A stretch of DNA of 64,000 bases, from positions 1 to 64,000 of the forward strand of contig MGUK01000095.1 in assembly GCA_001799995.1 (NCBI GenBank), given 5' to 3'. Source of the stretch: Elusimicrobia bacterium GWF2_62_30 (GTDB taxonomy: Bacteria > Elusimicrobiota > Elusimicrobia > Elusimicrobiales > UBA9959). Shown here piece after piece: positions 57,092 through 57,617 of this stretch. Under the pieces are notes generated by a model. It saw nothing but the letters and a program-made list of their open reading frames with translations. It had not been told where the DNA came from and searched no databases. Position numbers and translations under genes: made by a program. The stretch's first letter is position 1; each line of letters opens with the position of its first letter.

Positions 57092-57137
57092 CTGGGTCTT
57101 TATTGGGCCTTGACAAGTCCAGTGGGTCTGCTATACT
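57092..57137 (+). promoter_or_regulatory. Strong promoter of the CGGU-repeat RNA with CTGGGYC element
   Basis: TTGACA (57110-57115), 16 bp, TATACT (57132-57137). CTGGGTCTT (57092-57100) lies 31 bp before the -10, close to the 30 bp seen at the exported-protein promoters. TTGGGCCTTGACA is shared with the MarR promoter at 62442. Confidence 0.75.
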
Positions 57138-57143
57138 ACTAGT

Positions 57144-57445
57144 GCAGTGCTGATCTTTTCGGTGCGCCGGTCCTTCGGTAGTCGTCTCGGTCCGTCGTTG
57201 CGGTGCGGTTCGGTGTGCGGTCTCGGTGGCGGCTTGGCGGGTTCTGCCCGCGGCCCCCGGCGCGGTTCCCCGGTCGGTAGTTCCCGCCCTGCGGCGGGGC
57301 CGGGTAGGCGGTCCGGATGCGGTTCGGTTGCGGTGTCGGTGTGCGGTCGCGGTGCGGTTGCGGTGTCGGTTCCCGGTCCGTCTGTGCAGTGTGCTGGCCC
57401 GTGTGCCACGTGAAGAGCCCCCGATCCCCGGGGGCTCTCGCTTTG
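57144..57445 (+). ncRNA. Candidate non-coding RNA made of CGGU repeats
   Basis: Between a near-consensus promoter and a terminator lies a stretch with no believable reading frame. It contains 23 CGGT tetramers between 57160 and 57377, mostly 1-4 nt apart, and a 16-nt direct repeat (57325 and 57355, 30-nt period). The CGGT-rich arms contain little A and few self-complementary segments, so they should be largely single-stranded. The centre has two stable hairpins (GCGGG-TTCTG-CCCGC near 57238; CCCGCC / GGCGGG near 57284). This resembles in principle a protein-titrating RNA such as CsrB, but with CGGU and not GGA. It does not match RNase P, tmRNA, SRP RNA or 6S signatures. Confidence 0.55.
57414..57444 (+). 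terminator. Terminator of the CGGU-repeat RNA
   Basis: Perfect 10-bp stem AGAGCCCCCG / CGGGGGCTCT, loop ATCCC, followed by a weak T tract (CGCTTTGT). Confidence 0.7.
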
Positions 57446-57451
57446 TATGGG

Positions 57452-57585
57452 GGGCCTGAAGCGGGGGCAGGGTTAGCAAAACGCGCTCGCCCACACCGTG
57501 GGCATCGCTCATCCTCCTCCTTCGCCGCTTACGCAAGGCTCAGTCGTCGGAAGGTTTTGCATAACCCTGTCCCCGCTTCAGGCCC
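57452..57585 (+). repeat. Palindromic dispersed repeat, copy 3
   Basis: Outer ends GGGCCTGAAGCGGGG (57452-57466) and CCCCGCTTCAGGCCC (57571-57585) are perfect inverted repeats; the arms continue as CAGGGTTA-GCAAAAC. The 85-bp core (57476-57560) matches copy 1 at 8821-8905 almost throughout. Its small hairpin is GCCCAC-ACC-GTGGGC where copy 1 has GGGCAC-ACC-GTGCCC: both sides have changed together. Confidence 0.8.
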
Positions 57586-57617
57586 GGGTTTCACTGTTTA
57601 ATTAAGGAGTTGGGAAC

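Follow-up and report, generated by a model that had tools for sequence, protein, structure and literature searches.

The question raised by this locus is whether a stretch of a few hundred nucleotides, framed by a promoter and a terminator and crowded with a single tetramer, is the gene of a non-coding RNA, and what such an RNA might do in the cell. The locus lies in a window of 64 kb, the window being the whole stretch of Elusimicrobia DNA that was analysed. The original prediction had proposed here a promoter-driven, non-coding RNA of undescribed class and of about 300 nt, and it is supported by the homologous loci described below and by the absence of the RNA from Rfam. Comparison shows this locus to be the predicted gene of a non-coding RNA of ~300 nt, one of several paralogues in a lineage-specific structured family of uncultured Elusimicrobia, and we are highly confident that it encodes a real structured RNA family. 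The near-consensus promoter, the terminator with a 10-bp stem and the two central hairpins that had been read from the sequence were all found in place, and the parts of the window copy are the following:

57110–57137, + strand: sigma-70-type promoter TTGACA-16-TATACT (TTGACA 57110–57115, 16-bp spacer, TATACT 57132–57137; 11/12 match to consensus), with TG before the −10; the family promoter is known from other copies.
57144–57163, + strand: predicted RNA 5′ end (~57144, from the spacing to the −10) and leader GCAGTGCTGATCTTTT, in agreement with TGYAGTCYTGATCTYTT of the family.
57164–57170, + strand: 5′ arm GCGCCGG of the closing helix P1, from covariation across copies.
57171–57236, + strand: first YGGU-rich arm, within P1, from sequence and motif counts.
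57237–57251, + strand: hairpin P3, GCGGG-UUCUG-CCCGC, visible in the sequence, with a counterpart hairpin in other copies.
57257–57263, + strand: 3′ arm CCGGCGC of P1, from covariation across copies.
57269–57304, + strand: hairpin P4, outer CCCGG/CCGGG and inner CCCGCC-CUGC-GGCGGG (the inner hairpin visible at 57283–57298), kept in the closest homologue, L023.
57310–57378, + strand: second YGGU arm, with a 16-nt repeat at 57325 and 57355; it stands where other members have their longer, covarying 3′ core.
57395–57408, + strand: 3′ hairpin UGGC-CCGUGU-GCCA (family variants UGGC/GCCA and CGGC/GCCG).
57414–57448, + strand: intrinsic terminator AGAGCCCCCG-AUCCC-CGGGGGCUCU (10 pairs, 57414–57438) and a short U tract, the U tail CGCTTTGTAT being weak; conserved in the 52 complete copies.

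Directly 3′ of the terminator, at 57448–57592, stands a hairpin-forming, REP/BIME-like repeat of ~100–145 bp with 53 matching places in its own genome, copies of which also lie beside the family member on contig C77.

Homologues were searched for in the own genome and in 60 relatives, and related genomes were found to hold loci in which promoter, structure, terminator and clustered motif are kept. The initial search gave matches in all 32 genomes of the genus, some of them to the promoter only, and a promoter-plus-leader pattern with at most two mismatches gave 1–5 copies per genome in 30 of the 32. Homologues were finally counted in 31 of the 32, the exception being G020, which is 66% complete; G004 had been missed by the pattern because its copy carries the same imperfect palindrome as the window copy. 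Among the 60 stretches retrieved there are 57 distinct copies, and in 52 of these the sequence is complete as far as the terminator; the own genome has three (C95:57110, C95:154812 and, on the minus strand, C77:15596). Genera g14, g15 and g16 contain matches to the pattern as well, and the copies of the sister genera g15 and g16 show promoter and leader, the helices, and the 3′ hairpin with the terminator, so that the family extends to two or more sister genera within Elusimicrobia. A search of the phylum with the 3′ core found it in 14 of 248 genomes, all in this family and including g15 and g16, and among the records with the promoter pattern all the named ones are Elusimicrobia, the others being bacterial genome assemblies from metagenomes.

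Many copies sit at fixed places. The gene before them is gyrA in ~16 species, as recognised by its Pfam domain DNA_gyraseA_C, and in other cases recQ or a polysaccharide-deacetylase-like gene, two assignments made from the sequence; L165, a copy of genus g15, likewise has recQ upstream. The window copy is preceded by an NAD-epimerase/DUF2867 gene, and since the order in other genomes is NAD-epimerase/DUF2867, deacetylase, RNA, it may be the deacetylase locus after loss of the deacetylase. In one genome, two members 78% identical stand in tandem near recQ (L055, 3010–4297). As to a mobile origin, phage and plasmid records contained no match, and a viral link was discarded, given that the two viral contigs found matched the promoter pattern only, upstream of a protein gene.

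In nearly all copies, the palindrome TTGACAAGTCAA overlaps the −35 element and is followed by a 17-bp spacer, CTGTTATACT and the leader TGYAGTCYTGATCTYTT, of which TGATCTYTT is conserved. A variable insert then separates the two arms of a helix, GCGYCGK and MCGRCGC, the latter leading into GGTT and a C-rich block. The 3′ part holds a core of several hairpins, then the short hairpin UGGC/GCCA and, last, the terminator GAAGAGCCCCCG...CGGGGGCTCTC. The window copy shares with the family the −35 palindrome, in an imperfect version (TTGACAAGTCCA, 57110–57121), the leader, P1, the 3′ hairpin and the GAGCCCCC terminator. The predicted length of about 300 nt holds for this copy, whereas most members are longer, about 350–450 nt (promoter to terminator 189–454 nt, median 386), and contain a covarying 3′ core that is absent from the window copy.

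Taken by itself, the window copy folds no better than shuffles (z −0.03), its energy being ordinary for the composition, and the structure was therefore judged by comparison. Because the arms are variable, a folding from a MAFFT alignment of all copies was too loose, and it was replaced by per-locus alignment and a covariance model. This 3′-core model, R1, was built from gyrA-linked copies and also finds the recQ- and deacetylase-linked ones. Its alignment has 45 rows, a few of them matching weakly, and was fitted to the model, a procedure that favours it somewhat; in this alignment, 96.1% of cells are paired vs. 90.9% in shuffles, 14 pairs show two-sided changes vs. 5.8, and pairing falls to 42–62% when the partner is moved by 1–3 columns. 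Helix P1, which does not depend on the model, shows C-G to U-A changes, with two-sided changes in 14 cells vs. 5.8 in shuffles (maximum 12). A further pairing, in which CUYUUU of the leader would meet GAAGAG at the foot of the terminator, is open to most copies; as a copy's own partners gain nothing in score over swapped ones (13.37 vs. 13.36), it is not claimed. The window locus gave no match to R1 at E 1, and it has, like L023 of G004 (78% identity), a second YGGU arm in place of the 3′ core; the window copy, like L023, is thus a reduced form, and one that consists mostly of YGGU arms.

None of the covariance models of Rfam 15 matched the family, even at E 1, in agreement with the earlier reading of no match to RNase P, tmRNA, SRP or 6S RNA; the matches obtained in the scan were one tRNA outside the locus, weak sub-threshold ones and a spurious miRNA on the adjacent repeat. 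The shared promoter, helices and terminator, the covariation above controls and the lack of an Rfam match together give good support to a new RNA family, previously uncatalogued, lineage-specific, multicopy and structured.

The 23 CGGT tetramers counted in 218 nt were recovered exactly, at 57160–57377, and they are indeed far above chance: the transcript shuffled with its dinucleotides preserved yields 5.3 ± 2.1 (at most 15 in 1000 shuffles), and elsewhere in the window, on both strands, a 218-nt stretch holds at most 6. The 16-nt direct repeat CGGTTGCGGTGTCGGT does recur at a distance of 30 nt. Over all copies, 791 CGGT were observed against 282 expected, and in 20 gyrA-linked copies the YGGU motif occupies a loop of the insert, clamped by GGGCCC on both sides and 25–82 nt long, with 136 observed vs. 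42 expected. In the sister-genus copy L164, CGGU is nearly lost and GGU is retained. The repeated motif announced as CGGU is therefore real, but it is better described as YGGU/GGU in an A-poor, G/U-rich arm. The content of A is 5.1% in the RNA bodies, compared with 23.9% in the 60 bases upstream and 19.4% in the 60 bases downstream, and only 2.7% in the window copy. GGA motifs average 1.1 per copy; the window copy has one, and no ANGGA. The clustering of the motif is kept in homologues and its spacing is not; the arms vary in length and unit order even between close species, as they do in unit order between the window copy and L023, while motif and A-poverty persist; this variation by unit turnover could in part be repeat slippage. 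A similar extra stretch, GGCCGTCTGA...GGGCATAGCCC...ACGGC, was seen inside the variable arm of L067 and L027, which belong to different genomes. A search of the own genome for the tandem YGGU pattern gave four matches, three of them in the window locus, and no set of mRNAs with matching YGGU clusters.

The repeated short motif suggests the capture of an RNA-binding protein, and arms that keep the motif and the A-poverty despite changes in length and order fit what would be a multivalent protein-binding tract. We propose that the RNA would act in trans, with the GC-rich helices P1, P3 and P4 and the 3′ hairpin and terminator as a stable frame holding out the nearly A-free, G/U-rich arms, whose many YGGU sites could bind several copies of an RNA-binding protein. 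The most plausible partner would be a small RRM protein of the genus with a glycine-rich (RGG) tail, which might be sequestered or gathered while the shared strong promoter is active. RRM_1 proteins with glycine-rich tails are present in 31 of the 32 genus genomes, and RRM proteins in none of the 16 genomes searched of another family. The idea that RRM genes occur only with the RNA was not upheld, given that members of the same family, in sister genera without a detected copy, also have them, and the co-occurrence is therefore not specific. Protein titration by the window RNA is plausible. As confidence in the RNA family is very high but much lower in the titration of an RRM protein, the joint statement, namely an RNA-family gene whose product acts in trans by titrating an RRM-type partner, is tentative, and we give it somewhat less than an even chance.

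The best of the other explanations, which we regard as possible but rather doubtful, is that the conserved helices and the 3′ core do the work, as a scaffold or as part of a ribonucleoprotein, and that the YGGU arms are tolerated slippage expansions. In its favour, conservation and covariation are found in P1, the 3′ core and the 3′ hairpin, whereas the arms are changeable in length and unit order even between close species; against it, nearly all gyrA-linked copies remain rich in YGGU and poor in A in spite of the turnover, and the window copy lost the 3′ core yet kept and enlarged its YGGU arms. We consider quite improbable an antisense regulator whose leader or YGGU arms would pair with mRNAs, a reading for which the conserved leader speaks, as does the example of FopS, multicopy sRNAs of an RRM-protein bacterium that act by pairing (PMC11697453). 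The size and heavy structure of the RNA are unlike those of such sRNAs, and the arm sequences are not conserved. Two-tier RNA G-quadruplexes, formed by GG runs in the arms and binding RGG-tail proteins or blocking some process, have only a slim probability: the window copy does have 22 two-tier patterns vs. 4.9 in shuffles, and the RRM proteins of the genus have RGG-like tails, but two longer copies are near the shuffled level (8 vs. 5.5 in L072; 4 vs. 3.3 in L034), and two-tier quadruplexes are weak.

A DNA array of protein-binding sites with incidental transcription, the alternative that the original prediction had offered on account of the clustered motif, is very improbable, because promoter and terminator are conserved, the motif is always on the transcribed strand and the helices covary as paired RNA. 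A small coding gene is scarcely credible: frames of 77–94 aa do exist, since A-poor DNA has few stops, but none is conserved among the homologues or open in most copies, of 42 gaps between close copies only 4 have a length divisible by three, and substitutions show no preference for a codon position.

The promoter class has other users. The palindromic −35 promoter TTGACARGTCAA also precedes predicted secreted-protein genes (L134, L135, L136, L141, L145, L149, L151 and L155), several of whose products, in different genomes, share the motif WTVMVFxNxKNxLE, reminiscent of clostripain-like peptidases, and the palindrome itself may be an operator. The initial scan for promoters, run with a shorter gap, did not hit the RNA; what it brought up was another promoter class, with a spacer of 16 bp. 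A second small RNA candidate of ~60 nt, GGGCCCGCGGCCCCTCTTAGTGGGTTTCTCGCGGGCCC plus a T tract, uses the same promoter class with the 16-bp spacer in several genomes (L139, L140, L146, L150, L152 and L156), and a third of ~110 nt (L147, L148 and L154) begins with GGACGCCGTATA and has a GATAACC...GGTTATC terminator, lying in two of these loci upstream of a glutamate-formiminotransferase-like gene; neither the second (L139 and L146 scanned) nor the third (all three loci) had an Rfam match.

A wider formulation, which we hold unlikely as it stands, would be a new class of large RNAs whose nearly A-free arms are multivalent platforms for small RRM-RGG proteins, under a palindromic promoter shared with secreted-protein and other small-RNA genes; if true, such an RNA would be a bacterial counterpart of RNA-scaffolded RRM/RGG assemblies. 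The present family in any case adds an uncatalogued, lineage-wide structured RNA, unusual in its ~5% A and in its arm architecture, to a phylum with, to our knowledge, almost no RNA biology, and a concrete candidate ligand for bacterial RRM-glycine-rich proteins, whose RNA targets, as far as we know, have been found in few bacteria.

Among known systems, REP/BIME-like repeats are also intergenic and several per genome, but this family has 1–5 copies (about 50 for the neighbouring REP-like repeat), many of them syntenic, with promoter, terminator and covarying structure. OLE, ROOL and GOLLD are likewise large and structured with an unsettled cellular function; in contrast, the Elusimicrobia RNA is shorter, A-poor and multicopy on chromosomes, and without an Rfam match. 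CsrB, to which it had been likened, CsrC and RsmY/Z resemble it in having their own promoter and terminator, many copies of a short motif and a length of ~300–400 nt. They carry (A)NGGA in hairpin loops, whereas here YGGU lies in long G/U-rich arms, and a literal CsrB-CsrA system is rejected, since GGA is rare and CsrA (PF02599) is absent from all 41 genomes searched, with E. coli, B. subtilis and T. maritima positive as controls. The nearest precedent for a putative RRM-bound RNA family is that of Bacteroides, where the RRM protein RbpB binds the 14-member paralogous sRNA family FopS (PMC11697453). FopS members are ~65–70 nt and pair with mRNAs (PMC11697453), whereas the present RNAs are mostly 300–450 nt, highly structured and YGGU-rich, and no sequence relation between the two has been shown; what they have in common are multicopy paralogues, also found here at 1–5 per genome, with their own promoters, in bacteria with RRM proteins and, here, without CsrA.
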